Positions 2,947 to 27,832 of a stretch of 34,416 bases of DNA are shown one piece after another. Origin of the DNA: Halonotius pteroides (lineage in GTDB: Archaea > Halobacteriota > Halobacteria > Halobacteriales > Haloferacaceae); the NCBI RefSeq assembly GCF_003605635.1, contig NZ_QMDW01000027.1, positions 1 to 34,416 on the forward strand. Reading direction: 5' to 3'. Every line of letters starts with the position of its first letter. The stretch's first letter is position 1. Below the pieces are notes generated by a model, which searched no databases, was not told the DNA's origin, and saw only the letters and a program-made list of their open reading frames with translations. Position numbers and translations under genes: made by a program.

Positions 2947-5900
2947 TCTTCAACCCCACGAGGGTTCGTCTGAAACATACATCTTCGTCAGTGGGATTCG
3001 TGACGGTAATCGCTTCAACCCCACGAGGGTTCGTCTGAAACCCCGATACCCTCCGTTGAGTCGGCGATCTCATTCCGCTTCAACCCCACGAGGGTTCGTC
3101 TGAAACACATGATCGATGTCTTGCCCACTCGCCAAACGGTTGCTTCAACCCCACGAGGGTTCGTCTGAAACCATTGGAAGCGCGGTATCCTTCCATGCCA
3201 AGCAGCGGGCTTCAACCCCACGAGGGTTCGTCTGAAACTCATTGGGGATATGGCTGTTCAGTAGCTCACATTGCTTCAACCCCACGAGGGTTCGTCTGAA
3301 ACCGCTCTGTACGGCCTCTCATGTCGGTTGTTTCGACAGCTTCAACCCCACGAGGGTTCGTCTGAAACTCCGCGTGTTCCGGGGTGGCGACGATGAGTAG
3401 TTGCGCTTCAACCCCACGAGGGTTCGTCTGAAACCGCTGCGGAGTGTGATATCAAAAAGATTGTCGTCGCTTCAACCCCACGAGGGTTCGTCTGAAACTA
3501 AGAACGCCGACTTTGATGATGGCCCATTCGGTGAGCTTCAACCCCACGAGGGTTCGTCTGAAACGATCTTTCATAACTTCTATTCGTGATTTTTGTGTTG
3601 GCTTCAACCCCACGAGGGTTCGTCTGAAACCAGATCATCGCTGGGCTTGAGCCCGATCAAGCCGAGGCTTCAACCCCACGAGGGTTCGTCTGAAACGTAT
3701 CAGCGACAAGGGTTGCTGTTGCGTTGTCTGTGCTTCAACCCCACGAGGGTTCGTCTGAAACACAATGTCGTGGTGTGTATCGTAAATAATGTTGTTGCTT
3801 CAACCCCACGAGGGTTCGTCTGAAACTCGGCCAACCAGAGGCAGTTGAGTCATACGATACGAATGAGGGCTTCAACCCCACGAGGGTTCGTCTGAAACCC
3901 CAAGCAACCGCCACAAGTGGTTTCGCGGCAGTTGGCTTCAACCCCACGAGGGTTCGTCTGAAACACACATAGCCTATACGCCCGTACTACACACACGCGC
4001 TTCAACCCCACGAGGGTTCGTCTGAAACACTGATTCGCCTGCGTTGATTGAATCAATAGTCGGTGCTTCAACCCCACGAGGGTTCGTCTGAAACCCGATG
4101 GGGCCTACAATCTAAGCGATATGGTCTAATGCTTCAACCCCACGAGGGTTCGTCTGAAACCATCAACATCCCTGACGGCGTGGCTGAACAGTGGGCTTCA
4201 ACCCCACGAGGGTTCGTCTGAAACGGGCGACGCGATGGTCGCCAACCACGTCCCGCAAGCTTCAATCCCACGAGGGTTCGTCTGAAACGCCACTGTTCAT
4301 GCCGACGATCAACAACCACGCACCGCTTCAACCCCACGAGGGTTCGTCTGAAACTGGTTTTCTATCGCTTGCAGCCATTGCACGCCCTCAGCTTCAACCC
4401 CACGAGGGTTCGTCTGAAACTGGTTTTCTCAATATAGGTTGTCTCCCTTTCTGGGGCTTCAACCCCACGAGGGTTCGTCTGAAACTCACCGTCGAACCAA
4501 CAGCGTCGGCGCGGCGGCGTGCTTCAACCCCACGAGGGTTCGTCTGAAACTCTCGCCGTTCAACTCTTGGTAGGCGTCAAAGAGGCTTCAACCCCACGAG
4601 GGTTCGTCTGAAACTCTCAACGTCACGGAACAGATAGATACCGATGTTGGCTTCAACCCCACGAGGGTTCGTCTGAAACCGACAACAATTCCTGACTTCA
4701 CATTCCCACCCGCAGCTTCAACCCCACGAGGGTTCGTCTGAAACGTGAAGCATGAACGAGATAGGACATACACGCAGTACGCTTCAACCCCACGAGGGTT
4801 CGTCTGAAACTTGAGTGAGCTGGTGTCGGGCGGGCTTTCGTAGCGGCTTCAACCCCACGAGGGTTCGTCTGAAACCCGCGTTGGTCTTCAAGTTCCGAGG
4901 CGAGCGCGCTTCAACCCCACGAGGGTTCGTCTGAAACGATCGGTGTTGGCCCTGAGAGTCGACACATCGCGGCTTCAACCCCACGAGGGTTCGTCTGAAA
5001 CTCGAGAGTATGAGTGCGAGCCCGCTCAACAGGCCAAGCTTCAACCCCACGAGGGTTCGTCTGAAACCCTGAATCGAAACTCAGGAATGTCAGCAAGACC
5101 CCGCTTCAACCCCACGAGGGTTCGTCTGAAACGCTATAGATTCAATTCAAAAGCCAACGTAAACCATGCTTCAACCCCACGAGGGTTCGTCTGAAACCAG
5201 TCACTCTGCAATGCAATGTTAAAAACGCAGATTGCTTCAACCCCACGAGGGTTCGTCTGAAACTATCTGCACGGCCAGACCCTTGGGGTGACACCCTCGC
5301 TTCAACCCCACGAGGGTTCGTCTGAAACCACCGCTGCGATCAACAGCAAAGTCGTCTGCGTTGCTTCAACCCCACGAGGGTTCGTCTGAAACCCTCACCG
5401 ACTGGACACATGTCGACAATACAATCCCGCTTCAACCCCACGAGGGTTCGTCTGAAACCAACTGCAGTTGGTCAAGGCACTCATTGAGTTGCCGGCTTCA
5501 ACCCCACGAGGGTTCGTCTGAAACACAACTTTGAAGCCGCGAAAAAATCGTTCAAGGAGCTTCAACCCCACGAGGGTTCGTCTGAAACCTCGCTGTCGCC
5601 ACGCGGGATCTTGAGCCGATGGCGGCTTCAACCCCACGAGGGTTCGTCTGAAACGCGAGCTTGTCCGTCTGCTCTTCAGTCAGCGTGTGGCTTCAACCCC
5701 ACGAGGGTTCGTCTGAAACCACAGCAAGTCGCACGTGGCGATCTCGTTGAGGAAGCTTCAACCCCACGAGGGTTCGTCTGAAACGATGACGCTCCGGTGC
5801 CGATCACGTGGCGCAAGCAGGCTTCAACCCCACGAGGGTTCGTCTGAAACCGGCCGCCGCTCTTTTCTGTCGGCTGTTCTCCAACAGCTTCAACCCCACG

Positions 5901-6702
5901 AGGGTTCGTCTGAAACGATCGTCGATGAGCGGCAACCGCGACGAACTCCCCGCTTCAACCCCACGAGGGTTCGTCTGAAACCCGTCGTTGTCAACAATCG
6001 GCATCAGTGCCGCCGGCTTCAACCCCACGAGGGTTCGTCTGAAACGTATGCTGCAGGCATCATTACGTGCGTTTGATCAAGGCTTCAACCCCACGAGGGT
6101 TCGTCTGAAACCAGCGGATCAGACAGGCCGCCAGAGAGCAAATAAACGCTTCAACCCCACGAGGGTTCGTCTGAAACTCGGAGCCCTCGAAACCACGCCC
6201 TCAGCCTTCCAAGCTTCAACCCCACGAGGGTTCGTCTGAAACATCCAACGGGACGATGTTGACGCCAGCGTTGATCCCGCTTCAACCCCACGAGGGTTCG
6301 TCTGAAACTCTCAGGGTTGACGTTGGCAGCCACGTCGTCAGCCTGCTTCAACCCCACGAGGGTTCGTCTGAAACGCGATAGTCGACGTGGACAATTCGGT
6401 ACAATCGCCAGCTTCAACCCCACGAGGGTTCGTCTGAAACCGGAGGTCTGGGGGACATCGGCGTCGAGATTGCCCGCTTCAACCCCACGAGGGTTCGTCT
6501 GAAACTCGGGGCTGTCGATCCCCGCGACGTGACGGTTGAGAGCTTCAACCCCACGAGGGTTCGTCTGAAACACCGTTGTCGGTGACAGAGACCGTCTGTT
6601 CGGTCAGGCTTCAACCCCACGAGGGTTCGTCTGAAACACCTGATTTTCCACAACCTCACCTACGGCATACGGGCTTCAACCCCACGAGGGTTCGTCTGAA
6701 AC
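2947..6702 (-). CRISPR. type I-B CRISPR array, 58 repeats and 57 spacers
   Basis: Fifty-eight 30-bp repeats begin GCTTCAACCCC and end GTCTGAAAC on the plus strand, with 57 spacers of about 34-38 bp and a period of 64-68 bp. The reverse complement (starting GTTTCAGACG, ending GTTGAAGC) is the usual haloarchaeal I-B orientation, so transcription runs leftwards from the cas2 side. Almost all repeats are identical. The exceptions are the last one (2947), whose first base is T instead of G, and the one at 4259, which reads GCTTCAATCCC. A degenerate repeat at 2947, the end far from cas2, also places the leader at 6703-6806. No spacer was noticed to match another part of the window, but this was checked only by eye. 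Confidence 0.98.
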
Positions 6703-7445: not shown

Positions 7446-10058
7446 TTATAGTTCGGTATCAAGGACGGCATCGTCGAGGGCAATTCCTTTTCCAGTGTTG
7501 ATCGCATACTTGTCGTCGTCTTCATCGATATCTGCGATTCTGAGATCCGCTGAAAGCTCCGTATCCGAGACTGGCACCGATACCAAACATGATTGAAGCT
7601 GTTGAAACATGGAACTCGCTTCCTGCCAGTGATTTTCATCTTTCGCCTGTTGATAGTTCTTGTACAGTTCTCGTTCGGAATCAGTGATCAACACCAATAC
7701 ATCGATAGTGGTGTACTCCTCGTCGATCAGTGAGGCAGTCCGTAGTTTATTTCCCTCGCCGTTGTTGTATGCAGTCACCAGCTCATCAGTCCGGTCACCG
7801 GTCTGAAGTTGGCCGTGCAGTTGATCATAATATCGCTCAATGCCATCAGAGATTACCGCTGACTCAGGCAGCGTAGTCCCGCGGTTAGTAACCAACTCAT
7901 TAAGCACAATTTGTGTTGGCCGAAGCAACGATGCATCGCCATAGATCAACGAACTCGGGATATACTCTTGTTGGGGTGGACTATCCAACCGCCAGATCGT
8001 CACTGGGCGAGTGGGCCCACCAAAGGAGCGATTACATCGCCCTGCCGCTTGGACGATCGCTGGCAAGGGCGCAAAGTCACGATACAGTCGATCAAAGCTA
8101 ATATCAACGCCAGCTTCGATCAACTGCGTCGAGATAGTCACCGTAGGCGTCCCGTCAAAGGGGGTCGTCGTGTCTGGATCAGTAATTAACCCAATTGCGT
8201 CGATCAAGAGCTGTCGATCAACCGGGCGTAGTCGAGTCGTCAACGTCGCTGTCAGCAATTCGGCCCCATCGCTACGGTCAGCTAAGTACTGAAGATAGTC
8301 ATCTGCAGATTGTGCGTCTGGATCTCGATTCCGATGATACGATAGCAGCTGATCACCTAACGCAACTGAGTCTGCTGAGGATGCTGCTGCAGACATTGTT
8401 ACCGCACAATCGACCGTATTGACGATCGACAATGTGTTCGAGGAGCCAGTTGTCTCACCAACAAGCTCCTCAGCAGCGGTCGCCAGTGGAAGCGGCCCGC
8501 CTTCACGTTCAAAGTATGCCTGCATGCTCTCATGGAGATCAAAGGTCACTCGGGGATTGTCAGCTAACACCGACCGACAGGCTTCGCCCAACCCAACCAA
8601 CGGCGTTGGCGTAGGCGTCTCATCCAACTGGTCTACGAACCGTGGTTGGGTCGCTGTCATCAGAATAACTGTGGCATCGTACAGCTCAACACACGTCGAT
8701 ATGAGGTGGCCGATGAGGCCCCACCACTCATGCGGTGCCGCCTGCGGTTCGTCAATGATGATGACACTGTCGTGGAGAGCAGGCAGCTTTATTGACTGAA
8801 CATTCCCGGGGCCAGCAAGGGTTTCGAAAAGTTGTGTGAAAGTCGTCAGTACCAACCCTGATCGCCATGCTTCAGCATGTAACGTTTCTCGGCCTGTGCT
8901 GTACCCCTCAGTGTGTAAGTCACTATCAGCAGTCCGTGTATCAGCTAGATGGTGATGTTTGGTATAGGGCTTTGAATGCGGTTTCAGTCCGAAGATAGAT
9001 TGAATCTCACTGTCGACCTGATCAATAATCGATGTATATGGAAGGCTGTAGATCACCCGACTGTCTCGATTGGCCGCCCTAGTGAGGGCTGCCCGGAGGC
9101 CAGTGTATGTCTTCCCAAACCCAGTCGGTAACGTGATCTCGAAGACATTTGTCTGGGGATTGGCTTCGATTGTTGATGTGGCCCGGCCGTTGGCGGCCGT
9201 CTGAATTGCAGCCACCCGCTGTCGGATGGTTGCTGAGGCATCCGGAAGCTCAGCATCGGGGTGTCGACGATACCAGCGTGCTGGCTCGCCGTTGGGAAGC
9301 CGTGTCGAAGACAATCGATCAACTCGTTGGGTGAGCAACGAGGGATCAGGGCGAACGGTGGTTGTGAGCTCTGTCACGTTATCGGCGGTCGTCAGTCTAC
9401 TGGCATCGCTCTTATCCGCAGCTACGAGCGTCGACCACAGATTCAGGCTGTACGCGTAGAAGTCATCGTTCCCGACAGTGCCGATGAGGTCACTGATTGC
9501 TCGCTGATAGTCGTCTGCTGAAAGCCCACGGATATCATCCCAGCTGAGGGCTCCCTCGGTTGTCGTCGTGATGATCTCGTCGGCAGCGTCAGCGGCCTGA
9601 TCATCGATCGCCTGGAGTTGGTCATCACATCGATCTAATCGCTGTTGAATGTACTCGTCTGAGCGTGTGTATTCAGTCAGTGCTGGCTGAATATTCGGCA
9701 GTACGGAGTGGTGTTTTGCAACGGCGATGAACCCTGCTGCTGCGGTGGCATCACTACAGCCCAAAGCGTTGAGAATAGGGAGAGTGATCAGCGCACTCAC
9801 CTCGCCGTGGTAGGTGTGTTTTGGACTGGGGGCCGCTGTGCGATCACCGGTCGCTACATACTCTTGGAACCACGGTGTGAGTTTTCCAAAATCGTGACTC
9901 CATGCGACGGCCCTTGCAACTGTCGACCACACCTCACCAAACGGCGTGTCTCCACGATCGGTGCTCAACGCGGCGGCTGCAGCTGCGACCCCACGACAGT
10001 GCGCATCAAGCGACTGGGTGGGGCGTGCATCGAAGGCTGCTAGGGCCCGCTGTGTCAT
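7446..10058 (-). CDS. cas3: CRISPR-associated helicase-nuclease Cas3 (type I-B)
   Basis: Cas3, recruited by Cascade to unwind and degrade target DNA. The N-terminal HD nuclease domain shows SHDFGK (about residues 54-59) plus later histidines KHTYH and AKHHS. The SF2 helicase follows, with Walker A PTGFGKT (about 311-317), the DEAD-like box IIIDEPQA (about 436), MTATQPR and motif VI QAAGRCNR. It is about 870 aa, as expected for a fused HD-helicase. ATG at 10056-10058 overlaps the cas5 stop as ATGA and is preferred over an upstream in-frame start three codons earlier. The reading frame is complete, so interference is probably retained even though the genes behind it are deleted. Confidence 0.95.
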   Translation of the reverse strand: MTQRALAAFDARPTQSLDAHCRGVAAAAAALSTDRGDTPFGEVWSTVARAVAWSHDFGKLTPWFQEYVATGDRTAAPSPKHTYHGEVSALITLPILNALGCSDATAAAGFIAVAKHHSVLPNIQPALTEYTRSDEYIQQRLDRCDDQLQAIDDQAADAADEIITTTTEGALSWDDIRGLSADDYQRAISDLIGTVGNDDFYAYSLNLWSTLVAADKSDASRLTTADNVTELTTTVRPDPSLLTQRVDRLSSTRLPNGEPARWYRRHPDAELPDASATIRQRVAAIQTAANGRATSTIEANPQTNVFEITLPTGFGKTYTGLRAALTRAANRDSRVIYSLPYTSIIDQVDSEIQSIFGLKPHSKPYTKHHHLADTRTADSDLHTEGYSTGRETLHAEAWRSGLVLTTFTQLFETLAGPGNVQSIKLPALHDSVIIIDEPQAAPHEWWGLIGHLISTCVELYDATVILMTATQPRFVDQLDETPTPTPLVGLGEACRSVLADNPRVTFDLHESMQAYFEREGGPLPLATAAEELVGETTGSSNTLSIVNTVDCAVTMSAAASSADSVALGDQLLSYHRNRDPDAQSADDYLQYLADRSDGAELLTATLTTRLRPVDRQLLIDAIGLITDPDTTTPFDGTPTVTISTQLIEAGVDISFDRLYRDFAPLPAIVQAAGRCNRSFGGPTRPVTIWRLDSPPQQEYIPSSLIYGDASLLRPTQIVLNELVTNRGTTLPESAVISDGIERYYDQLHGQLQTGDRTDELVTAYNNGEGNKLRTASLIDEEYTTIDVLVLITDSERELYKNYQQAKDENHWQEASSMFQQLQSCLVSVPVSDTELSADLRIADIDEDDDKYAINTGKGIALDDAVLDTEL

Positions 10059-10816
10059 CGGAAGCAAACGGTTCGATCACCGACTGTTGCCACCGCTGCA
10101 TCGGGAGCACTCAGTGTTTCGCCGGCCGGGGCATACGCATACGAGGCGAATCCGGTGGTTTTCCGGCCGTGATCGTCAGCTTCCATGAACGCTGGTGATC
10201 GTTCCATTTGGAGTGGTGTCCCGGGTGTGGGTACCACATGAGCCTCGGGAACTGTCGATGAGATTGCTTCGGTGTCGCCGCCCTCACTGACCGTCGTTCG
10301 CTCCACATCTTCGATTGAGGCCAGACATTCAGTCTTCCCCAGTGAGGGAGTATAGACAGCCCGTCCAGACTCAAGATAGTCGGTCAACCGATCGAAGGTT
10401 TCGGTGTCATCCAAGATCAGATCGATCCGATAGGACGCATCAACAACATACTCGAAGGTGCGACGTTTGCGCTCTGCAGCGATTGTTTTGGGATCGATGA
10501 CTGTCTTGCCTGAGATGCCCTCTGCTGATTTGATGTCGCCACTGGTCGTCGGGAGAGTCAACATCGGGATTGCCTGAGTGGTAAGCGAACACGCTGGTGA
10601 GATCGCCATCGCTGAGGCCTCCCGACTGAAGGTGTCATAGTAGGAGTCTCGAGGCTCACCGAGGATCGCCGCCAGCAATCCGGCAACGGTGGTTCGCGGG
10701 ATCACCCGATAGGTGAGCTTCTCGGTTGTGGCATCGATCCGTCTGAAATGGGCAAACGGGCCACTAACCGTAAAGGAGAGACACTCCCGGCCAGTGACAT
10801 CCAGTGAGGTACTCAT
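10055..10816 (-). CDS. cas5: CRISPR-associated Cas5 (type I-B)
   Basis: Cas5 (253 aa), the Cascade subunit that caps the 5' handle of the crRNA. The N-terminal RAMP strand and Cas5-type motif CLSFTVSGPFAHFRRIDAT is followed by TYRVIPRTTVAGLLAAILG, typical of Cas5 proteins. The start ATG overlaps the cas7 stop and the end overlaps the cas3 start, both as ATGA, which indicates translational coupling in one operon. No damage is visible. The assignment rests on the N-terminal motif and on its fixed place between cas7 and cas3. Confidence 0.93.
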   Translation of the reverse strand: MSTSLDVTGRECLSFTVSGPFAHFRRIDATTEKLTYRVIPRTTVAGLLAAILGEPRDSYYDTFSREASAMAISPACSLTTQAIPMLTLPTTSGDIKSAEGISGKTVIDPKTIAAERKRRTFEYVVDASYRIDLILDDTETFDRLTDYLESGRAVYTPSLGKTECLASIEDVERTTVSEGGDTEAISSTVPEAHVVPTPGTPLQMERSPAFMEADDHGRKTTGFASYAYAPAGETLSAPDAAVATVGDRTVCFR

Positions 10817-11856
10817 GCGTATGGATCGTGTTCGGTGACGGTATCGGCACCAACGGCGGCTTCCAGTGCCTCCACCAGTACGTCTGGGCCGCCCGTTTCG
10901 TCGCCGGCTTCAACGGTTAGATGTCGGTCGGTAGTGAGATGCACCGTCTCGATGTGATCGCTGTACGCTTCGAGATCGGCCAGCAACCCATCGATGTTCA
11001 GGGTGACATCTGTGATATTGCGCAACTCGGTGTCGGGTACATCGCCAGTCAGCTCCAGTCCATCATCGAGCGTGCCGATGTGGAATTCGTCGGTCGTATA
11101 CTCAACACGGAGGTACAGTCGCGGTTGATGGCCCATCTTTGAGCGTGTCAGCGTCTGGTTTTTAACGGCCCGCCAGAGGGCGGTATCCAGCCGATCAACA
11201 TCCGTCTCGCTAAGCAGTGTATCCTCCGCGGCGACCTCGTTGACAACACCATGGAATGGGATCAATGCATACTGAAGTCGGTTGTCGGTCGCAAACGTTC
11301 CCTGTTCATTTTCCTCACTACTGGAGACAACCGTCGAGAGCTGTTTTGATTCGCTCTTCTGGACAACCGTATTCAGACTCCGAGCATGGCTGAACTGTAC
11401 CGGGCCGATAAACTGGCCAGGGAAGCCCTCGCCAATCTGATCTTGGAACTCACTGCTGAACGAACATGTGGCACCGAAGTACCGAACATCGGTCGCATGC
11501 TGCAGGAAGCTGACGGCGGCTTCGTTGCCACCCATTTCTTCAAGTTCATCTTCCTCAAGCCCAGTGACCCGGGTAAACAGTTCATCACGGCCCGGAACAT
11601 CCTCAATCGTGCTTTTCGAGGGGTTTTTGACGTAGATTCCGAAGTCATCGTCGTCGAGTTGGTCGCGAAGATACCGCTTGAGACGGACATCGGTCACCAC
11701 GGCGGCGCCGGTTGTCTCATCAATACGAGGCTTATCGTTGGCAGACAGAGGATTCCCGTTGGGATTGGTATCTTCGGCATCATACAGGAAGACGATCTCT
11801 GAGCGGTTGTCTACAACATCGGTACCATCAGGGTGGGCGGCGGTAGTGTCTGTCAT
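10813..11856 (-). CDS. cas7: CRISPR-associated Cas7 (Csh2-like, type I-B)
   Basis: Cas7, the backbone subunit that polymerises along the crRNA in Cascade. The signature N-terminal region EIVFLYDAEDTNPNGNPL and the DVRLKRYLRD segment are typical of the Csh2/Cas7 family, and FIGPVQFSHARSLN lies mid-protein. ATG at 11854-11856 (MTDTTAAHPDG) is chosen because it lies 4 nt after the cas8b stop and precedes the conserved domain; a longer frame exists upstream but lies inside cas8b. That gives 347 aa, close to known haloarchaeal Cas7. Its stop overlaps cas5 by ATGA. Confidence 0.95.
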   Translation of the reverse strand: MTDTTAAHPDGTDVVDNRSEIVFLYDAEDTNPNGNPLSANDKPRIDETTGAAVVTDVRLKRYLRDQLDDDDFGIYVKNPSKSTIEDVPGRDELFTRVTGLEEDELEEMGGNEAAVSFLQHATDVRYFGATCSFSSEFQDQIGEGFPGQFIGPVQFSHARSLNTVVQKSESKQLSTVVSSSEENEQGTFATDNRLQYALIPFHGVVNEVAAEDTLLSETDVDRLDTALWRAVKNQTLTRSKMGHQPRLYLRVEYTTDEFHIGTLDDGLELTGDVPDTELRNITDVTLNIDGLLADLEAYSDHIETVHLTTDRHLTVEAGDETGGPDVLVEALEAAVGADTVTEHDPYA

Positions 11857-11860
11857 TGGC

Positions 11861-14074
11861 TTAGTTGGCGTCGGGGGCTGCAGCTTGTTCGTCGTCCTGT
11901 TCGTCAAGATTCGTATCGCTGAGGCCATAGGCAATACCTAAACTGTAGAGCCACTGCAGTTCGGCTTCGGTCAGTGACCACTCATCTGGATTGGCCGACA
12001 GCATGAGATCCGGCAGCCGATCGGTGTATCGGCTGTTGGTTCGATACGATCGGCTCTTGTCGGCCTCAGCATACGAGTTGTTCATCTGGAGTACCTCCTT
12101 GGTGACTTCCGTGATGGTCTGCTTGGTCAGGTAATCAACAGGGTACCGTCGCACCAAGGTTGAGCTAACCCCCTCGAAATCTTGGTAGGCAGTGATGCGG
12201 CCGACCAAGCCCCCAAGGAGGAAGATCGCTCGTTCAGGGTCAGCTTCTATGGCGGCATGGGAATCCAGGAACTGTTCAAGTCTGTCGTCGCGTGAATCGT
12301 ACTCGGTGTCCATAGGGTTGGTGTCGAATGAAAGCGTCTGTGCTGTATCAATGAGCCCAGCGTCGGTGAGGGCCCGAAGTTGTGCATACTGTTCGACGAC
12401 ACTGCGTTTTGGAAACGCGATATACCCATCGTCGGAATCGAATTGCTGTCGTTGCTCCTGTATCAACTGATGGATATATCGCTCAAGCAATGACGTAGCT
12501 GCCAACTTCCCGCCGGTGACCAGCGTTTTCACCGGTTGGAAGCGGCTGTCGTCGGCCGCTCCTGCCCCAGGTGTATCCGAGGCATTACGGCTGCTGCGAG
12601 TTGGTTCGGTTGTGCGTCGGAAATAGCCACCATAGAGGATGTACCGATGGAGGTTCAATTCCCTGCCCAACAGAGGGCTGGCATCCGGAGTTGGGTTGTC
12701 ATGGAAGATGCCATCGCCGCAAAATGGTGCTGTGTCGGTAGCCCGACTGTGAGCATTCGTCAGTGCCATCGCGCGTGAAACGCCATCCAACGAATCGAAA
12801 AATACGCGATCTGGGTTGCCAGTCACTTGATAGACGACAGCCACACGAACATTTGAATACTCCAAGTCGGTGCCTGAATCAAACGACAGGGCATCTGGGA
12901 GTGATTCCTCATCGGACATCTCACCACGAATCTCATCGAAGATATCCGAGACTGTGGCATCGAAGGTGCCGTCTTCACCGGTGTCTGCCCCTTGCAACGC
13001 CTTGTAAACCTCCGAATAGAAGGCCTCGAAGGTCTCAGGGTCGAGATCGGACTGACGGGTGGTGAGATACGGCAGGACATACAGCCGACGACTGTTGCCA
13101 AGCCCTCGGAAGAAGTCATCAAACACTGAACCGGCGACCGAAACCGCCGCGGCCACATCGAACGACAGTGGTCGGTTGCGCCACGCGGATTCACCTTCGG
13201 TGTCGAGATCGGCGAAGTGTTCGCGCTGCTTCTTTCCGAACATTCCGAAGAGACCGGGGGAGCCACCAGTGACGGGTTCGGTTTCATCGCTGACGTAGCC
13301 GGTGGATTCGCCGCGGGCATCCTCAACTGAGATGCTGGTGAGGCGATCGGCCTTTTTTGCCCGCATTACGTCATTGAAGATCGGAACTTCAGCGGGGAAC
13401 TTGTAGGAGTCTTCACCCGGAAGTTTCACTCGGACGGTGATCAAGGCCTCCAACTCATCCTCTTCGCTGTCGACCAACGACAAGAACGAGTCGGCCAGCT
13501 GCTCCATCGTGTTGTCGTCATCTCCCAGAGCAGCCATCGCCTCAAGAATGGCTGCATCCTCGGGTGCAGCGGCTTCTTTGACCGTCTCGGCGTACTCACT
13601 TTGGGCCCATCCAGTGAATCGATCTTGGATGTTGTTGGTGCCCCACGCATCATCGCGAAGCCCGGCCAGATGGTGGGCGTCGGCTCCCTTGTGGGTGGTA
13701 ATCGAGTAATCCGTCATTGAGCTTGTTTTGCCCTCGGGATAGGCGTGGCCGACGCGATAGCGATCACTCTCGGTGAGCGTTGTGATCTCGACGGGGCCAT
13801 CTGTTGTCTCAGCGGTTCCCAGAGTGGGATTTTCCGGATCCGACAGGTCGGCATACACCGTGATCAAGCTGTCTGGCTCACCGAAGAGACCGCTTTTTGC
13901 GCGTGGGGTGAGATATGCAAGATGTTCGGGTGCGAGATCCCAATCAAGGGCCTCGGAGGTGGCAGCATCGTACCAATCGAACAGTGAATACTGCCAGGCA
14001 ATCTCATAGAGTGAGGCCGGAATTCGATCTTGGAAGCGATCGACGGCCGTGCTGGCTGGTGTGTTACTAGACAT
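11861..14074 (-). CDS. cas8b: CRISPR-associated Cas8b (Csh1-like large subunit)
   Basis: Cas8b, the large Cascade subunit that takes part in PAM recognition and target-strand handling. The frame from ATG 14072-14074 (MSSNTPASTAVDRFQDRIP) encodes 737 aa, the usual size in haloarchaea. The ATG lies inside the end of cas6, with an 8-bp overlap; in-frame codons further upstream lie inside cas6 and are rejected. Family-like features are IPASLYEIAWQYSLFDWY at the N-terminus, SLFDWYDAATSEALDW shortly after, and a C-terminal helical part with FLLGGLVGRITAYQ and a terminal DEQDDEQAAAPDAN tail. Large subunits diverge strongly, so the call leans on length and operon position as well as similarity. Confidence 0.92.
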   Translation of the reverse strand: MSSNTPASTAVDRFQDRIPASLYEIAWQYSLFDWYDAATSEALDWDLAPEHLAYLTPRAKSGLFGEPDSLITVYADLSDPENPTLGTAETTDGPVEITTLTESDRYRVGHAYPEGKTSSMTDYSITTHKGADAHHLAGLRDDAWGTNNIQDRFTGWAQSEYAETVKEAAAPEDAAILEAMAALGDDDNTMEQLADSFLSLVDSEEDELEALITVRVKLPGEDSYKFPAEVPIFNDVMRAKKADRLTSISVEDARGESTGYVSDETEPVTGGSPGLFGMFGKKQREHFADLDTEGESAWRNRPLSFDVAAAVSVAGSVFDDFFRGLGNSRRLYVLPYLTTRQSDLDPETFEAFYSEVYKALQGADTGEDGTFDATVSDIFDEIRGEMSDEESLPDALSFDSGTDLEYSNVRVAVVYQVTGNPDRVFFDSLDGVSRAMALTNAHSRATDTAPFCGDGIFHDNPTPDASPLLGRELNLHRYILYGGYFRRTTEPTRSSRNASDTPGAGAADDSRFQPVKTLVTGGKLAATSLLERYIHQLIQEQRQQFDSDDGYIAFPKRSVVEQYAQLRALTDAGLIDTAQTLSFDTNPMDTEYDSRDDRLEQFLDSHAAIEADPERAIFLLGGLVGRITAYQDFEGVSSTLVRRYPVDYLTKQTITEVTKEVLQMNNSYAEADKSRSYRTNSRYTDRLPDLMLSANPDEWSLTEAELQWLYSLGIAYGLSDTNLDEQDDEQAAAPDAN

Positions 14075-14834
14075 TGGTGATGTTGAGAAAGCCCAGCCCG
14101 AGGCCATTTCGTTCGCCGATGCCGGTATCCAACGCCAAGTTGAGGTGGCGACGGTGGTCGTCATCCCGCACCTGATACTCGAATCGCCACTTGCTCAGGA
14201 CATAGGTCATCTCTTGGCCAGTGGTGACCGTCACCGGGATGGCGAAGGTTTTGATCAGCTCGTAGCTATCGAATAGCTCGTAGTCGGTGTCACTGGGCCC
14301 CGGGAGGTAGTCCGGACAGAAGCGATTGTGCTTCTGATCGAGATTGTTCTCAACTTGGGTGATGAACGGTTCCATCGTATGTTCTGGTTGCCAGAAAATA
14401 GCTTCATCACCGTCTGGTTTGATCCCATAATCATCAGCTTTCCATTGGGGGATACGGACTAATACACCGGTGCCGCTCTCGATGGTGCCTTCGGTACCGG
14501 GCTCGCCGACATCGGGTTCGAGTGAACTCACGTCGTCGACGTGGAACGGCATTTCGCCGATATTCAGCTCTCGGTCATCCAGCAAGTCTGCGGCAACGTT
14601 AGCCAGCAGCTCCTCGTCCGGTGAGCTAACTAACAGCTTTCGGTCGTCGCCGGCCTCCATGTCGTGTGGTGGGAACGGGTTCGAATACGCGAAGCCGGGG
14701 GGCTCGCCGTTGTCGTGGCGGTCGTCGTATGGTGTGTCTTCGAGTGCGTTCCAGATCCGACCTCGGAGTTTGTGGTGGTAGTCGTTCTGGTAGGCGGCGT
14801 CCGATCGGGCGGACAAATGGACCATTACACGCAC
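14067..14834 (-). CDS. cas6: CRISPR RNA endoribonuclease Cas6 (type I-B)
   Basis: Cas6 cuts the repeat RNA to make crRNAs with an 8-nt 5' handle, and is the first gene of the cas operon. The N-terminal strand MRVMVHLSARSD is followed by YQNDYHHKLRGRIW with His20/His21, the likely catalytic region. The C-terminus has the glycine-rich loop GIGERNGLGLGFLNI that defines the family. The start is taken as GTG at 14832-14834 because a Shine-Dalgarno-like GAGGTGA sits 9 nt upstream (14844-14850). An ATG at 14825 is the alternative. The 3' end overlaps cas8b by 8 bp. Confidence 0.94.
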   Translation of the reverse strand: MRVMVHLSARSDAAYQNDYHHKLRGRIWNALEDTPYDDRHDNGEPPGFAYSNPFPPHDMEAGDDRKLLVSSPDEELLANVAADLLDDRELNIGEMPFHVDDVSSLEPDVGEPGTEGTIESGTGVLVRIPQWKADDYGIKPDGDEAIFWQPEHTMEPFITQVENNLDQKHNRFCPDYLPGPSDTDYELFDSYELIKTFAIPVTVTTGQEMTYVLSKWRFEYQVRDDDHRRHLNLALDTGIGERNGLGLGFLNITNV

Positions 14835-20740: not shown

Positions 20741-21195
20741 ACACCCCCGTGTCCGCAGAGTCTGCAGAGTGGATAACTTATAAAACACACACCCCCCACC
20801 ATGTCCGCAGAGTAGCGAGAAATAACAGGGGTTGATAGGATAAACACCGTTAAGAGAGTCTAAAAGGACGTTTTTTGAGGGAATACACGAAATATATCAG
20901 GCAGCGCAAAATGAATTCGCGTGACAAAGAAGTGTTCTAACATTTTCTTTATTTTATTTACCCACTACGGGTTTGGTTATTGAGTATTGGTAATAAAGAT
21001 ACCGGCTAGATTAGGCGTGATTCTAAGCAATAACTTTGTCAGGATCTATCGGCCTCTCAAATAGCCATGAGCGTCTGTACAACCGAAAGCCTAGGTGGAT
21101 TATCTTGAGATACAGCGGACGTAGTGGGGGGTGTGTGTTTTAAGCCAGATTTCTTCTCCAGACACAGAAGACACTCCGGACGCAGGGGTTTTAAG
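20741..21195. other. replication origin with four origin-recognition boxes
   Basis: Upstream of orc1/cdc6. On the minus strand, boxes at 20781-20808 (28 bp) and 20741-20756 read GCGGAC, four variable bases, then a G tract. On the plus strand matching boxes lie at 21115-21142 and 21176-21195. The two inner boxes agree at 26 of 28 positions (GCGGAC, N4, TGGGGGGTGTGTGTTTTA) in opposite orientation. Between them is an AT-rich stretch, densest around 20935-21000, suited to unwinding. Origin boxes with a G-string, arranged as inverted pairs next to orc1/cdc6, are known for haloarchaeal origins. Confidence 0.85.
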
Positions 21196-21219: not shown

Positions 21220-22437
21220 ATGCCCTCTAAATATGCAGGCCAATCGACCATCTTCGATGACGAAGAAGTCTTGTCTGAAGATTGGACTCCGGACGATTTG
21301 CCTGAAAGGGATGACGAGATCAACCAGCTTGAATCAGCTTTTGCTCCAGCAACACGGGGTGCTGGAGCCGACAACGTTTTTCTCTACGGTAAGGCTGGAC
21401 AGGGAAAAACTGCGGCTGCACAAGTTGAGTTATCCGAACTTGAGTATCACGCAGAAAATGAATCCGATATCCTCGATCTCACTACGCTATTCGTCTCATG
21501 CGAAGATTTGACTACCTCATTTCAGGTTGTTAATCAAATCGTCTATCAGCTCACTGGTGAACGGATGAATGGACTTAGTACGTCAGAGGCATTTGACCGA
21601 ATGTTTGAGGAATTTAACAAAATAGGTGGGACTATTATTTTGGTTTTAGACGAAATTGATAATATTGGAACAGATGACAAAATTCTTTATTCTATTCCCC
21701 GTGCAAGATCAAAAGGGTATGTTAACGAGGATGTCTACCCGAGCATTGTAGGTATCTCAAATAACCTCAAGTGGCGAGATAACCTCTCACCTAAAGTCAA
21801 AGACTCCTTGTACGATGAAAGTGTCCATTTTGTTCCGTATGATGCTAAACAACTTGGAGAAATTCTTGAACGTCGTGCAGAAAAAGCGTTCATTGATGAG
21901 GATGTGCTAGGGAATGATGTCATACCAATAGCATCTGCTTTTGCTGCACAAGACAAAGGTTCGGCACGACAGGCTATCGGGTACCTACGCAAGGCTGCAA
22001 AGCTTGCTTCCTCCAAGGGTGATGAAACGGTTACTGAATCTCATGTTAGGGAAGCTGAGGCATTGATTGAGAAAGAGCGAGTTGAGGAGGGTATGCGAGG
22101 TCTCACAACTCAAGGTCATCTTGCCCTTGCTGCGACAACCGCACTAGAATTATCAAACGACACTCCAGCTAGAACCAAAATCATCTATGGTATTTATAAA
22201 ACTATGGCGAAAAAAATTGATGTCAATATTCTCGCTATGCGACGAATGAGAGATCAACTTCATGATCTCGATATGCAAGGTATCATGATTCGATCTGAAT
22301 TTAACGATGGATCTCAAGGCGGTCACTATTATAAATACGAACTCGGTATTGAGACCGAAGCAGCCGTTAGCGTGCTATCAAATATTTCGCGTCTTGATGA
22401 AATTGACCTCAATAGTATCGAGAGCGCACACCGGTGA
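21220..22437 (+). CDS. Orc1/Cdc6 replication initiator
   Basis: Origin-binding AAA+ initiator of 405 aa that should recognise the adjacent boxes and load the MCM helicase. Visible motifs are Walker A FLYGKAGQGKT (about residues 57-64), Walker B ILVLDEIDNIG (about 141-150), a sensor-1 region near YPSIVGISNNLKW and a sensor-2-like arginine in KGSARQAIGYLRKA. A C-terminal winged-helix domain (about 290-400) carries the DNA-binding part. The ATG at 21220 follows the last origin box by 24 bp, so boxes and promoter overlap and self-regulation is likely. It probably drives replication of this replicon; which of several paralogues it is cannot be told. Confidence 0.93.
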   Translation: MPSKYAGQSTIFDDEEVLSEDWTPDDLPERDDEINQLESAFAPATRGAGADNVFLYGKAGQGKTAAAQVELSELEYHAENESDILDLTTLFVSCEDLTTSFQVVNQIVYQLTGERMNGLSTSEAFDRMFEEFNKIGGTIILVLDEIDNIGTDDKILYSIPRARSKGYVNEDVYPSIVGISNNLKWRDNLSPKVKDSLYDESVHFVPYDAKQLGEILERRAEKAFIDEDVLGNDVIPIASAFAAQDKGSARQAIGYLRKAAKLASSKGDETVTESHVREAEALIEKERVEEGMRGLTTQGHLALAATTALELSNDTPARTKIIYGIYKTMAKKIDVNILAMRRMRDQLHDLDMQGIMIRSEFNDGSQGGHYYKYELGIETEAAVSVLSNISRLDEIDLNSIESAHR

Positions 22438-22820
22438 CGTTTCGATGCCCGAACGACGACTGTTAGTATCAAACTGACGTGAACGGAACGATAACCATTG
22501 CAGACTGTTACCATAGTGGAGAGAGCACTACCCAAGCGATTGCGCTTCTGCTCAAGAGACTATGTCGATGCCTCGACTATGGATGAGTTTCTTTGACTGG
22601 AACAAGATAACCAAACCAATGCTAGACGGCGAAACATTGTTTTTCGAAATCGCTAGTTCATACAACAAGAATCGACGGTTTGATCCTTCCAATCACTTCT
22701 GACGAGATTCGGAGAGAAGCTGCTCGTAACTCTCGACAGAAAACGCCTGGATACAAAGCCATTTTCTAAAAACGGAAACAGATACGAAAACGCAAACGCA
22801 AACGAGTACGCAAACGCAAA
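22438..22820. other. intergenic between orc1/cdc6 and the partition operon
   Basis: No gene is certain. A 46-aa frame at 22562-22702 (plus) begins MSMPRLWMSFFDWNKITKPM, and a partly overlapping frame just before it ends DASTMDEFL. They could be remnants of one decayed gene. The right end carries the repeats described at 22790-22821. Confidence 0.3.
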
Positions 22821-22821
22821 C
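22790..22821. repeat. tandem iterons, candidate centromere (parS-like)
   Basis: A 14-bp unit ACGCAAACGCAAAC occurs at 22790-22803 and again at 22808-22821, separated by GAGT; each unit is itself a double CGCAAA motif. A looser AAACGGAAACAG stretch precedes them. They end at the stop codon of the parA partner gene. The core GCAAACGC recurs in the parA promoter at 24071-24078, which points to one binding protein for both. Confidence 0.65.
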
Positions 22822-23201
22822 TAGTAGTCGTTTTCGACTCTTTGAACCCGTGCCCGCTTTTCAGCTTCGGCGAGCTCTGGTGTTACGTCCTGAATGCTAT
22901 ATCGAACTAATAACCGCAGTAACTCACTGCGGTCGCCTTTTGAATCCTTGTCAGACCCTAACTCGGAACGTAGGGTTTCGACCGTTGACTGAAGCCGTTC
23001 AGGATTCTGTTTTAATGCTTGGAAGAGTGCGGCTGTGCGCTCATCACGAAATGCAATGGTTTTTGACACATCTCCGGACTCGATACGACCCATCGCCTCT
23101 GCGAGGTCGTCAACAAAATGCTCGGTGGCTTTTGCTTCCTCATCGAGAGAACTGCCGCGATCATCTTTCATACTATCAGGAACTTGTATATCGTCGCTCA
23201 T
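22821..23201 (-). CDS. ParA-partner protein, probable centromere-binding factor
   Basis: Protein of 126 aa encoded directly behind parA. Its ATG overlaps the parA stop by 4 bp, so the two are translationally coupled. It has an acidic N-terminal half (KATEHFVDDLAEAMGRIESG), then FRDERTAALFQALKQNPERL, and a basic C-terminal helix ELAEAEKRARVQRVEN. No canonical ParB helix-turn-helix is visible, and it is too short for a full ParB. By position it should be the adaptor that binds the flanking GCAAACGC repeats and stimulates ParA, as in other small-partner partition systems. Binding itself is inference. Confidence 0.65.
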   Translation of the reverse strand: MSDDIQVPDSMKDDRGSSLDEEAKATEHFVDDLAEAMGRIESGDVSKTIAFRDERTAALFQALKQNPERLQSTVETLRSELGSDKDSKGDRSELLRLLVRYSIQDVTPELAEAEKRARVQRVENDY

Positions 23202-24052
23202 CGTTTACCTCCAATACGATCAACTAGTTCACGGGCGTTGGCGAGGTAGGCTTCCTTTGCACGGCTGGCTGTAGCCGAGGGCTCTTCGAGCTCGAAAATA
23301 GTCTTTCCTGCTTCAGTTGCGTTTCTGATGTCTTGTGATTTTGCCACCGGGTTAGGTGCCATTGCACCGTTGAACTCCTCTTGATAGCGGTTCATATAAT
23401 CATCAGCGAGAGTGGTTCCTCGCTCGAATTTATTTGGTATTACCATGGTAAGTTCTGCATCGATATCCCAGTTTGAACGATATTTATCGATATCCTCAGC
23501 TAATTGCTTAAGCTGACCAAACTCGTAACTCCCCATCTCTACAGGTGCGATTATGTTTTCAGCTGCCCACACTCCATTGTATGGTACAATCCTAGACAAT
23601 CCCGGTAGATCGATTAGGATAAAATCATATCGGCCTTCGAGATATTCGTCAACAAATGCTTTTAGCCGACCGTAGCGATCCTCTCGATCCTCAACATTGT
23701 TCAGTTCACCATCGACGCTATCGAGTCCTGGATGTGCCGGGATCAGATCCATGCCCTCGTTTGTCTCGTAGATTAAACGATCAAGGATGGCATCAGCACC
23801 GTTCATCTTCACGAGTTTTCCAAAGTCGTCGTCGAATACCGATGAGAGGTTAGGGAAATCCTCGTCATTCTCGATTGCCTTCTGTTGTGGTTCGTAGAGA
23901 CCGAACTGTTTGGCGAGATCCGACTGTTTCCCTGCTAAGTCAATCAAGATTCCTTCATGACCTAATTCAGTGAGTGCTCGCCCAAGATGAGCTGTAGTAG
24001 TTGTCTTTCCGGTTCCACCTTTGTCGAGGAATACTGCTGCACGTATTGTCAT
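23198..24052 (-). CDS. ParA family partition ATPase
   Basis: Partition ATPase of 284 aa that moves or positions the replicon. The deviant Walker A FLDKGGTGKTTTTAH (about residues 8-22), with the extra lysine typical of ParA/MinD proteins, is followed by EGILIDLAGKQSD and the Walker B-like YDFILIDLPGLSR. The downstream section MVIPNKFERGTTLADDYMN is typical for the family. The start ATG at 24050-24052 lies just downstream of an operator-like inverted repeat and TATA box. With the neighbouring origin it marks an autonomously maintained replicon. Confidence 0.92.
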   Translation of the reverse strand: MTIRAAVFLDKGGTGKTTTTAHLGRALTELGHEGILIDLAGKQSDLAKQFGLYEPQQKAIENDEDFPNLSSVFDDDFGKLVKMNGADAILDRLIYETNEGMDLIPAHPGLDSVDGELNNVEDREDRYGRLKAFVDEYLEGRYDFILIDLPGLSRIVPYNGVWAAENIIAPVEMGSYEFGQLKQLAEDIDKYRSNWDIDAELTMVIPNKFERGTTLADDYMNRYQEEFNGAMAPNPVAKSQDIRNATEAGKTIFELEEPSATASRAKEAYLANARELVDRIGGKR

Positions 24053-24059
24053 ATATACG

Positions 24060-24088
24060 TATGCGTTTCCGCAAACGCATATATTTAC
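24060..24088 (-). promoter_or_regulatory. parA promoter and operator
   Basis: TATGCGTTT (24060-24068) and AAACGCATA (24073-24081) form a perfect 9-bp inverted repeat, 8 bp upstream of the parA ATG, overlapping a minus-strand TATA-like TAAATATATG (24079-24088). Because it shares GCAAACGC with the repeats behind the partner gene, it is probably the site where the partition proteins repress their own operon. Confidence 0.65.
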
Positions 24089-25097: not shown

Positions 25098-26489
25098 ATG
25101 CGTCTCTCGTTCGACGACGGCACTCTCTTGATTGAGGATGCTCCCGATACTGTCCCTCACGCTGAATGGGACGACCGTGTTGAGGAGTATCGGGCCCAAG
25201 CCCAGCACTATCGAGAGATCTACGAGTGGGCCACCGGTGACGGCCAAGCCACGCTTCGGGAATCGCCGGCGAGTTCAGCGGGATTCGAGGACGCTGCTCG
25301 TTCGTTTTCTGAATTCGACCTCACGCCATCGGTCGCTATTGAACCACGAGACTACCAACAGGAGGCACTGACTGCGTGGCGAGAAAATAGCCGCCGTGGA
25401 AGTGTCGTCCTCCCGACTGGCAGTGGTAAAACGTTCCTTGCTGTCCAAGCCATCGCCGACGCCGGTGTTAGTACGCTTGTTGTCGTCCCGACGATTGATC
25501 TCATGAACCAGTGGCACGCCACCCTCACCAACGCCTTTGGCGAGCAACTGCCAAATGGCGTCGGCGTTCTCGGTGGTGGCAGCCACAACGTGACCGAAGT
25601 CACAGTCACGACGTACGACTCTGCCTACCGGTACATCAACGAGTACGGTGATCGATTCGGCCTGCTTGTCGTCGATGAGGTTCACCACCTTCCGGCACCC
25701 ACCTACCAGCAGATCCCCGAGATGACGATAGCACCGTATCGACTCGGGCTTACGGCTACCTACGAGCGAGCAGACGAGAAACACGAAGTCCTTGAAGATC
25801 TTCTCGGATCGGTCGTCTATCAGGAGGCCGTCGATGAGTTGACCGGCGAGTATCTCAGCGAGTACGAAACGATCCACCTACAGGTTGAACTCACTTCCGA
25901 CGAACGGGAGACCTACGACGAAGAGTACCAGATTTACCGCGATTATATCGATACTCACGATATCGAGCTCTGGAAGGAAAACGGCTACCAGGAGTTCCTC
26001 AAACGCACCTCGTATGATTCGCAGGGGCGGCGGGCTCTCATCGCTAAACAACGAGCAGAACGCATTGCTCGAACCGCCGAAAAGAAACTCGATACACTCG
26101 ATAACCTCCTGAAACGCCACTACGACGACCGGACGATCATCTTTACCGCCAACAACGAGTTCGCCTACGAGATCTCGCAAGAATTCATTGTTCCTTGCAT
26201 CACTCATCAGACAGCCACTGACGAACGAACAGAAATCTTGGAACGATTCCGCACTGGTGAATACTCAATGCTGGCGACCTCCCAAGTTCTCGATGAAGGG
26301 ATCGATGTCCCAGCTGCCAACGTCGGGATTATCCTTTCGGGGAGTGCGTCCAAACGGCAGTACGCCCAACGACTCGGCCGAATCCTCCGCCCGACTGAAG
26401 ACAACCAACCTGCTCGGCTCTATGAGATCATCACTGAAGATACGATGGAGACCTACGTGTCAGATCGCCGCCGACAGGGGGTGGCCTGA
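25098..26489 (+). CDS. XPB/Rad25-type SF2 DNA helicase
   Basis: Helicase of 463 aa that, with the nuclease Bax1, is thought to process DNA structures in repair. Motifs are PTGSGKT (Walker A, about residues 106-112), the DEVHH box (about 193), GLTATYERADE (motif III followed by an XPB-type RAD/RED element), ATSQVLDEGIDVP and QYAQRLGRILRP (motif VI). An N-terminal domain of about 80 residues with the damage-recognition position precedes the core. The stop TGA shares its A with the ATG of the next gene, so the two are co-translated. A TATA-like box at 24993-24999 could be the promoter. Haloarchaea usually hold other XPB copies, so this may be accessory. Confidence 0.92.
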   Translation: MRLSFDDGTLLIEDAPDTVPHAEWDDRVEEYRAQAQHYREIYEWATGDGQATLRESPASSAGFEDAARSFSEFDLTPSVAIEPRDYQQEALTAWRENSRRGSVVLPTGSGKTFLAVQAIADAGVSTLVVVPTIDLMNQWHATLTNAFGEQLPNGVGVLGGGSHNVTEVTVTTYDSAYRYINEYGDRFGLLVVDEVHHLPAPTYQQIPEMTIAPYRLGLTATYERADEKHEVLEDLLGSVVYQEAVDELTGEYLSEYETIHLQVELTSDERETYDEEYQIYRDYIDTHDIELWKENGYQEFLKRTSYDSQGRRALIAKQRAERIARTAEKKLDTLDNLLKRHYDDRTIIFTANNEFAYEISQEFIVPCITHQTATDERTEILERFRTGEYSMLATSQVLDEGIDVPAANVGIILSGSASKRQYAQRLGRILRPTEDNQPARLYEIITEDTMETYVSDRRRQGVA

Positions 26490-27832
26490 TGCTGACTGCC
26501 GACCTCGCTCGCTCCCGGACGGACGGCGACACGGTCACGCCATTGTTCGTTGATCCGGACGATGACCGATATCAACAGACAGCAACCGAACTCATCGAAA
26601 TTTTCACCGAGCATCTGGGCGAGCCGAAAGGCGAGGTAGAGGCGACGATTGACGAGCTAACCATCGCCGATACGGACTACAAAATTGTCCAAGGGCTAGC
26701 GAAACTCCTGCAAGACGAGTGTGAGTTCGAAGTCGTTGCCCCGGTTGATCCACAGGAAATCCGTCGGCGACTGTTCGAGAAGGCCAACGACTCGTATCCG
26801 GTCGTCCGCCAACCGACACTCGGGGATGATACTCAACCGCTGGATATCTATAGCAACATCGCTGACCGACTCGGCATCTCACTTGAGGAGTGCTACAAGG
26901 GAATGTATGCGGATCTCGACGAGAACAAGCGACTCGTCCGCTTCGGGAATCAGGCCATCGAGGGTCACGATGGTGAGGTGACGACGAGTACCACACAGCT
27001 CACCGGTGACAGTGCGGAATCGTATGCCGATGATACGATCACTGTTGAGTGGCTACTCACCCGCTACAATCTGGCGTTAGCGCAGGCTGTTCTCTATGAT
27101 GCCACAGAGATGCGGATTCGCGTGTGGGATTCCTTCTCGACGGTGTTCAGCTACGTCAAGCTCTTCGGGTTGATGCATCGGATCTATCCAATCGACAACG
27201 CCGGAAGCAGGGTTGAGAGTACGGACGTAGCCGATGGATACGAGGCTGTGCTTGATGGTGCTGCCTCACTGTTTTCGAAATCGCGGAAGTACGGCATTCG
27301 GATGGCGAATTTCCTGCCAGCTCTCCCGTTGTGTACGCGCTGGGAGATGGAAGCCGAGATTCTTGATGAGACAACCGGGACAACGGATCACCGCCGAACG
27401 CTTGCGTTGGATCACACTGACGGCCTCTCTTCACACTATTCGGCACAGAGCGACTTTGACAGCGATGTCGAACGAACCCTCGCTGACAAGTGGGAGCGGG
27501 CGAATACTGAATGGGAGCTCGTACGTGAGGATGATGTGCTCGATCTCGGTGCAGAGGTGATGTTACCCGATTTTGCAATTGAGCACCCTGATGGTCGGCG
27601 TGTAATCCTCGAAATCGTTGGCTTCTGGACGCCAGAGTATCTCTCCGAGAAATTGACGAAGATCAGGGAAGCAGACGCAGCAAATCTCGTAGTTGCGGTT
27701 TCAGAACGGCTCGACTGCTCGGCAGACGATTTCGAAGGGATGGACGACCGGGTGCTGTGGTTCAAATCTGGGATTCATGTGTATGACCTCGTGGAGTTGG
27801 CTGATGAGTATGCCTTGCCGACAAATACCTGA
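26489..27832 (+). CDS. Bax1 nuclease (DUF790), XPB partner
   Basis: Protein of 447 aa of the DUF790/Bax1 family, a structure-specific nuclease that forms a complex with XPB. The N-terminal segment MLTADLARSRTDGDTVTPLF and the mid-region WDSFSTVFSYVKLFGLMHRI are family-typical. The C-terminal restriction-fold nuclease core is seen as VMLPDFAIEHPDGRRVILEI followed by VGFWTPEYL, giving the Asp and Glu of a PD-(D/E)xK-like site. The start overlaps the helicase stop by 1 nt (TGATG). Both the neighbour and the family make the pairing well supported. Confidence 0.93.
   Translation: MLTADLARSRTDGDTVTPLFVDPDDDRYQQTATELIEIFTEHLGEPKGEVEATIDELTIADTDYKIVQGLAKLLQDECEFEVVAPVDPQEIRRRLFEKANDSYPVVRQPTLGDDTQPLDIYSNIADRLGISLEECYKGMYADLDENKRLVRFGNQAIEGHDGEVTTSTTQLTGDSAESYADDTITVEWLLTRYNLALAQAVLYDATEMRIRVWDSFSTVFSYVKLFGLMHRIYPIDNAGSRVESTDVADGYEAVLDGAASLFSKSRKYGIRMANFLPALPLCTRWEMEAEILDETTGTTDHRRTLALDHTDGLSSHYSAQSDFDSDVERTLADKWERANTEWELVREDDVLDLGAEVMLPDFAIEHPDGRRVILEIVGFWTPEYLSEKLTKIREADAANLVVAVSERLDCSADDFEGMDDRVLWFKSGIHVYDLVELADEYALPTNT

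Follow-up and report, generated by a model that had tools for sequence, protein, structure and literature searches.

The window analysed here is one contig of 34,416 nucleotides from the 3.0-Mb assembly of the haloarchaeon Halonotius pteroides. Its minus strand carries a TBP gene, parA and a gene for a 126-aa partner protein. The parA gene (23198-24052, minus strand) encodes a ParA-type ATPase of 284 aa, which matched AAA_31 (8e-19), CbiA (1e-13), the ParA-like partition protein phrog_164 (7e-36) and ParA/Soj chains in the PDB. Its P-loop (KGGTGKTT) starts at residue 11 of 284, and the protein therefore has no N-terminal HTH domain. The partner gene (22821-23201, minus strand) overlaps parA by 4 bp, and its product is proposed to be a SegB-like ribbon-helix-helix protein that binds specific sites, given the fold match of a relative (L135) to SegB. 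An Orc1/Cdc6 initiator gene (21220-22437, plus strand; TIGR02928, 6e-108) is convergent with the par operon. Upstream of orc1 we found an inverted pair of 28 nt each (20781-20808 and 21115-21142; 93% complementary and 306 nt apart), a possible candidate for a replication origin adjoining the par module.

Two other features of the same contig were observed. CRISPR-like repeats, recognized from recurring peptides among the listed open reading frames, and a type I-B cas set (Cas3b, Cas7b) occupy positions 3000-6700 and 7446-14834. Adjoining the TBP gene, an XPB-like helicase gene overlaps a DUF790 gene (25098-27832), and this pair looks conserved.

Just 3' of the partner stop codon, and 334 bp from the end of orc1, lies an array of eight hexamers of the ACGCAA type (22772-22819), which we propose as the centromere (parS). 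All eight hexamers are in one phase, and 40 of the 48 positions match ACGCAA, compared with a maximum of 29 in 60 random windows of equal dinucleotide make-up. The minus strand reached 28. Tandem Repeats Finder reported a period of 6 (also 6.3 copies, at 22784-22821). The preliminary description of this DNA had recognized two 14-bp tandem units at the 3' end of the partner gene. Both copies of ACGCAAACGCAAAC are exact (22790-22803 and 22808-22821) and directly follow the partner stop codon, but the true unit is the hexamer, and the two copies are part of the eight-hexamer array. The left boundary of 22790 given in that description also had to be moved, as the array begins 18 bp earlier, at 22772. 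The word GCAAACGCAAAC has only two copies in the entire 3.0-Mb genome, both at the par module. The repeat observation holds and is stronger than it was first stated.

An inverted version of the repeat had likewise been reported over the parA promoter, and we identified it as a 20-bp palindrome, ATGCGTTT-CCGC-AAACGCAT, which spans 24061-24080 (9 to 28 bp ahead of the parA start codon). This proposed operator is built from the word of the array (CGCAAA), and 0.04 occurrences of it are expected in the window at up to 3 mismatches. It fills the gap between the ATG and a putative TATA-like box, TAAATATA (24080-24087, minus strand; 28-35 bp before the ATG), which was read from the sequence. Given the layout of archaeal promoters, a protein on the parA palindrome would be expected to block transcription initiation.

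To describe the distribution of the family, we searched for relatives of the partner by tblastn and found them in 27 haloarchaeal plasmid records (PLSDB), where nearly all are annotated as 'hypothetical protein'; large contigs carry the module too. Partner relatives were present in 87 of the 392 sampled genomes of the order. A profile search at the level of the phylum found 11/392 genomes, all of them the own genome or members of the same family or the same order. Annotated phage records and viral contigs were also searched, and no partner relative was found in them. From about 105 listed loci of relatives, 80 were fetched; near-duplicates and the weakest ones were omitted. By blastp, 78 of the 80 contained ORFs for both ParA and the partner, the exceptions being L040 with no ParA match and L115 with no partner match. 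An Orc1/Cdc6 match was found in 11/80 loci. No description of this ParA-partner pair was found in the open-access literature searched. The module is real, widespread and, in that literature, undescribed.

Several loci are worth recording individually. On a Halobaculum rubrum plasmid (L040/L138), a partner homologue with no adjoining ParA follows a type B DNA polymerase gene and has no obvious flanking repeats; it is either a copy in decay or an orphan that serves a different function. The scaffold of the nanohaloarchaeal Candidatus Nanosalinarum sp. J07AB56 (L134) carries a close partner relative with promoter words of the CTATAG type, which reflects either transfer between the host and its symbiont or a mistake in binning. 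Two to four par modules per genome were observed in six genomes (G190, G166, G362, G017, G062 and G069). The site classes of such co-resident modules often differ, and two genomes hold two modules of one kind.

We then compared the two ends of the operon across the family. Starting from 79 loci with both genes (window included), 7 were dropped for having no clear P-loop or start or for lying too close to the end of a contig. Another 20 had partners over 85% alike and were dropped as well, leaving 52 non-redundant loci. In each, we counted the 7-mers that the parA promoter (-60 to -1) has in common with the 100 bp immediately following the partner gene. The number of shared 7-mers was 262, compared with a mean of 83.9 and a maximum of 154 when downstream regions were swapped between loci (0/5000 permutations). 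At least one 7-mer was shared in 42/52 loci (permutation mean 25.8, maximum 39). In windows 400-500 and 800-900 bp downstream, the sharing was at background.

The words themselves fall into site classes: CGCAAA (10 loci, window included), CTATAG (18), CGTATA (5) and a GTATCTG type (11), with 8 loci unclassed. These classes and words were set after inspecting the data, and the permutation test is independent of them. Wherever the two ends of a locus could each be classed, the classes agreed (20 of 20 loci; after shuffling, mean 7.3 and maximum 16). Under the strict rule, 21 of the 52 loci had a class at just one end, and 11 had none at either end; 15/52 had a classed promoter and an unclassed downstream region, so that a downstream array is not universal. 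Over the 60 bp immediately ahead of parA, site density reached 20-53 per kb, and over the 60 bp immediately downstream of the operon 17-38 per kb, compared with 0-3 per kb inside genes and more than 300 bp away on both sides. Within the downstream arrays, the spacing on the same strand was mostly 6, 12 or 13 bp.

A different element was seen further upstream in relatives. In 33 of the 52 parA promoters, GTCTGAC lies ahead of the TATA box, about -41 to -85 from the ATG (e.g., L047, L051 and L103). In 6/7 genomes searched, the pattern GTCTGACG-N4-TTTA had between 1 and 9 copies per genome (reversed control at most 1), whereas the genome of the window itself gave no match. We rejected the GTCTGACG element as a partition site because it recurs at other sites in those genomes and is missing from the window promoter. 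The pattern is a haloarchaeal promoter element.

The partner has no family above the cut-off in Pfam, NCBIfam or PHROGs, and PADLOC gave no match either. The preliminary description was right that it lacks a ParB-type motif: Pfam and NCBIfam gave no ParB match above the cut-off for the window partner, and there was none among the families listed for the 52 members. Sub-threshold matches to RHH_1 (3/52 members, best E 0.016) and aCcr1 (4/52, best E 0.039) were weak and were not used as evidence.

A ribbon-helix-helix fold had been suggested as a target for structure prediction, which we applied to the window partner and to a relative. The AlphaFold2 model of the window partner was poor (pLDDT 64.8) and had no useful structure match, SegB included. 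The relative L135 gave a better model (pLDDT 80.4), whose top two matches among 350,542 PDB chains were both Sulfolobus SegB, 7duv_A and 7dv2_A (SegB-DNA). Foldseek aligned L135 to 7duv_A with a probability of 0.99, a TM of 0.78 by SegB length and an E-value of 0.25, and VIA-align matched 7dv2_A with a Z of 6.5 over 76/76 SegB residues (rmsd 2.6). The next row (Z 5.1) spans only the N-terminal long helix. Since the Foldseek E-value was 0.25 and the Z was below 8, the SegB match is a strong lead, not proof. By sequence, profiles A1 and A4 were compared with all PDB sequences, SegB included, and no SegB row appeared up to E 10. The remaining PDB matches, such as spectrin repeats and helical bundles, were judged to be common helix arrangements, and WD-repeat matches of profile A4 were rejected as a short look-alike of the strand. 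The earlier proposal of a "new class" of centromere-binding protein was overstated, because the best PDB matches of the L135 model are SegB, an archaeal ribbon-helix-helix segregation protein. The family is nevertheless absent from the libraries and undescribed, and, judging from the model, the partner is probably better called a member of an undescribed, SegB-like family.

The predicted DNA-reading strand of the partner is formed by residues 46-53 (SKTIAFRD; codons at 23043-23066, minus strand). This short stretch has helices on both sides, the place expected for such a strand in a ribbon-helix-helix protein, and its residues 50 and 52 vary together with the sequence of the sites. Residue 52 is W or Y in 18/18 CTATAG loci and R in all 26 others, while residue 50 is A in 10/10 CGCAAA loci (window included) and in 1/34 others. 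Position 52 for CTATAG and position 50 for CGCAAA were the best single partner columns tested for those classes. The window partner, with A50 and R52, is of the CGCAAA type, in agreement with its sites. This covariation is limited by phylogeny, because independent contrasts on the ParA tree numbered only 3 and 2, all in the expected direction and far too few for significance. The window ParA clusters with four loci, three of the CTATAG class and one unclassed (SH-aLRT 96), and since it forms a long branch, this placement is unsure. From the covariation, it is well supported that the partner would bind these sites. We put forward, as a tentative and rather doubtful extension, that residues 50 and 52 of one beta-strand choose the CGCAAA, CTATAG, CGTATA or GTATCTG set at both ends and thereby create separate specificity (incompatibility) groups, that the window module has switched group relative to its ParA ancestry, and that SegB and the plasmid partners have one archaeal origin. 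The last part would follow if the partner fold is truly the SegB fold.

We consider it quite probable that parA and the partner gene form a two-gene ParA/SegB-like partition operon, in which the partner is predicted to have two targets, the promoter for autorepression and the array downstream as the centromere. It would be a dimeric SegB-like ribbon-helix-helix protein, whose beta-strand (residues about 46-53) would read a word of ~6 bp, CGCAAA in the window. Bound to the inverted copies that separate the TATA-like box from the ATG, it would block transcription of its own operon, as the position of the site suggests. Several partner dimers may load onto the eight direct hexamers to form a partition complex, and the array would thus act as the centromere, a role suggested by the array itself, by the accompanying ParA and by the adjacent replication gene. 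ParA, attached to the nucleoid without sequence specificity and presumably stimulated by the partner, would move the centromere arrays, and with them the plasmids, apart. The preliminary description had likewise suggested a partner that binds a centromere downstream and represses the operon upstream. The paired end sites found family-wide, the word that tracks partner residues and the repressor-like promoter site lend this mechanism good comparative support, and the centromere function as such is probable.

The most serious alternative is that the partner is an autorepressor only, and that the array is an extra regulatory site, for example against read-through towards orc1. The centromere would then be the promoter itself, as it is in bacterial type Ib systems and SegAB, or lie at another place. 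The 15/52 relatives with a classed promoter and an unclassed downstream region fit this explanation, as do the known SegB sites, which lie upstream of segA in the available text of PMC12284271 and PMC5120986. However, the eight units of the window array outnumber those of the promoter palindrome, and downstream arrays recur in the family, yet Orc1/Cdc6 is found in only 11/80 loci. Direct arrays with 6/12-bp phasing also resemble loading sites more than a single operator. We regard a purely autoregulatory partner as unlikely.

Far less probable is that ParA, Orc1/Cdc6 or a host factor binds the sites and the partner has no DNA contact. An Orc1/Cdc6 gene does adjoin the array in the window, with a possible origin upstream of it, but the same gene is found in just 11/80 relative loci, and ParA has no N-terminal HTH domain. 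Moreover, the site word follows two neighbouring residues of the partner strand better than any other column tested, and the L135 model matches a DNA-binding protein. Chance or low complexity can practically be dismissed. Short words such as CGCAAACG are indeed not unusual (the window holds 6 copies compared with 1.3 expected), but hexamers at 40/48 against a maximum of 29, a palindrome expected 0.04 times and end pairing reached in none of 5000 permutations speak against it, and the family-wide test refutes it.

Molecular detail of archaeal plasmid and chromosome segregation exists for very few systems. Haloarchaea are a group with genetic tools. The module, present in 87/392 genomes of the order, comes with a candidate centromere, operator and specificity residues named, the question of euryarchaeal replicon centromeres becomes directly testable, and the module suggests a route to predicting the compatibility of haloarchaeal plasmids. 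The available parts of reviews of archaeal segregation cover Sulfolobales systems (PMC5120986, PMC9178275, PMC7617429).

Among the known partition systems, SegAB, which serves chromosome segregation in Sulfolobales and some Euryarchaea, is the closest in several respects. Both have a ParA-type ATPase with no HTH and a small overlapping partner gene directly downstream, and SegB is the best fold match of the L135 model. Palindromic sites upstream of the ATPase gene are also common to both, as far as the accessible text of PMC12284271 and PMC5120986 describes them. In contrast, the haloarchaeal partner has no detectable sequence similarity to SegB, and the SegB consensus TCTAGA-S-TCTAGA gave 8 matches in the window at up to 3 mismatches (6.3 expected), none of them in the par region. 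The haloarchaeal module also adds a downstream array of direct repeats and is found on plasmids (27 PLSDB records) as well as on large contigs. Because the tests of sequence similarity and site motif failed, we did not file the module as SegAB proper, only as SegB-like.

The bacterial type Ib systems (ParF-ParG of TP228, delta-omega of pSM19035) share a short ParA with no N-terminal HTH, a small partner downstream and promoter-proximal repeats, and omega of pSM19035 reads short direct repeats. The window sites also lie where a type Ib-like partner would be expected to repress the operon and to bind a centromere. The type Ib systems differ in that no sequence similarity was found, and in that the haloarchaeal module is archaeal, with a longer array downstream in the window. 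Type Ia (SopAB-sopC of F) resembles the module in the repeat array downstream of the partner gene, as given in the available text of PMC9178275, whereas the haloarchaeal ParA has no regulatory HTH and the partner is not a ParB-CTPase/HTH protein. The AspA-ParB-ParA system of the Sulfolobus plasmid pNOB8 is likewise an archaeal plasmid partition system with an upstream palindrome (PMC5120986, available text), but it consists of three genes, including those for a winged-helix AspA and a 470-aa ParB, whereas the haloarchaeal module has two. In the accessible part of a 2025 survey of ParB-CTPases, archaeal ParAB detection was put down to likely contamination (PMC12704722). The haloarchaeal partner differs from ParB-CTPases, and the module would therefore probably fall outside that survey, as far as its accessible text indicates. 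By analogy with these systems, we propose that the module would work like type Ib partition and archaeal SegAB, with the addition of a downstream array like that of type Ia.
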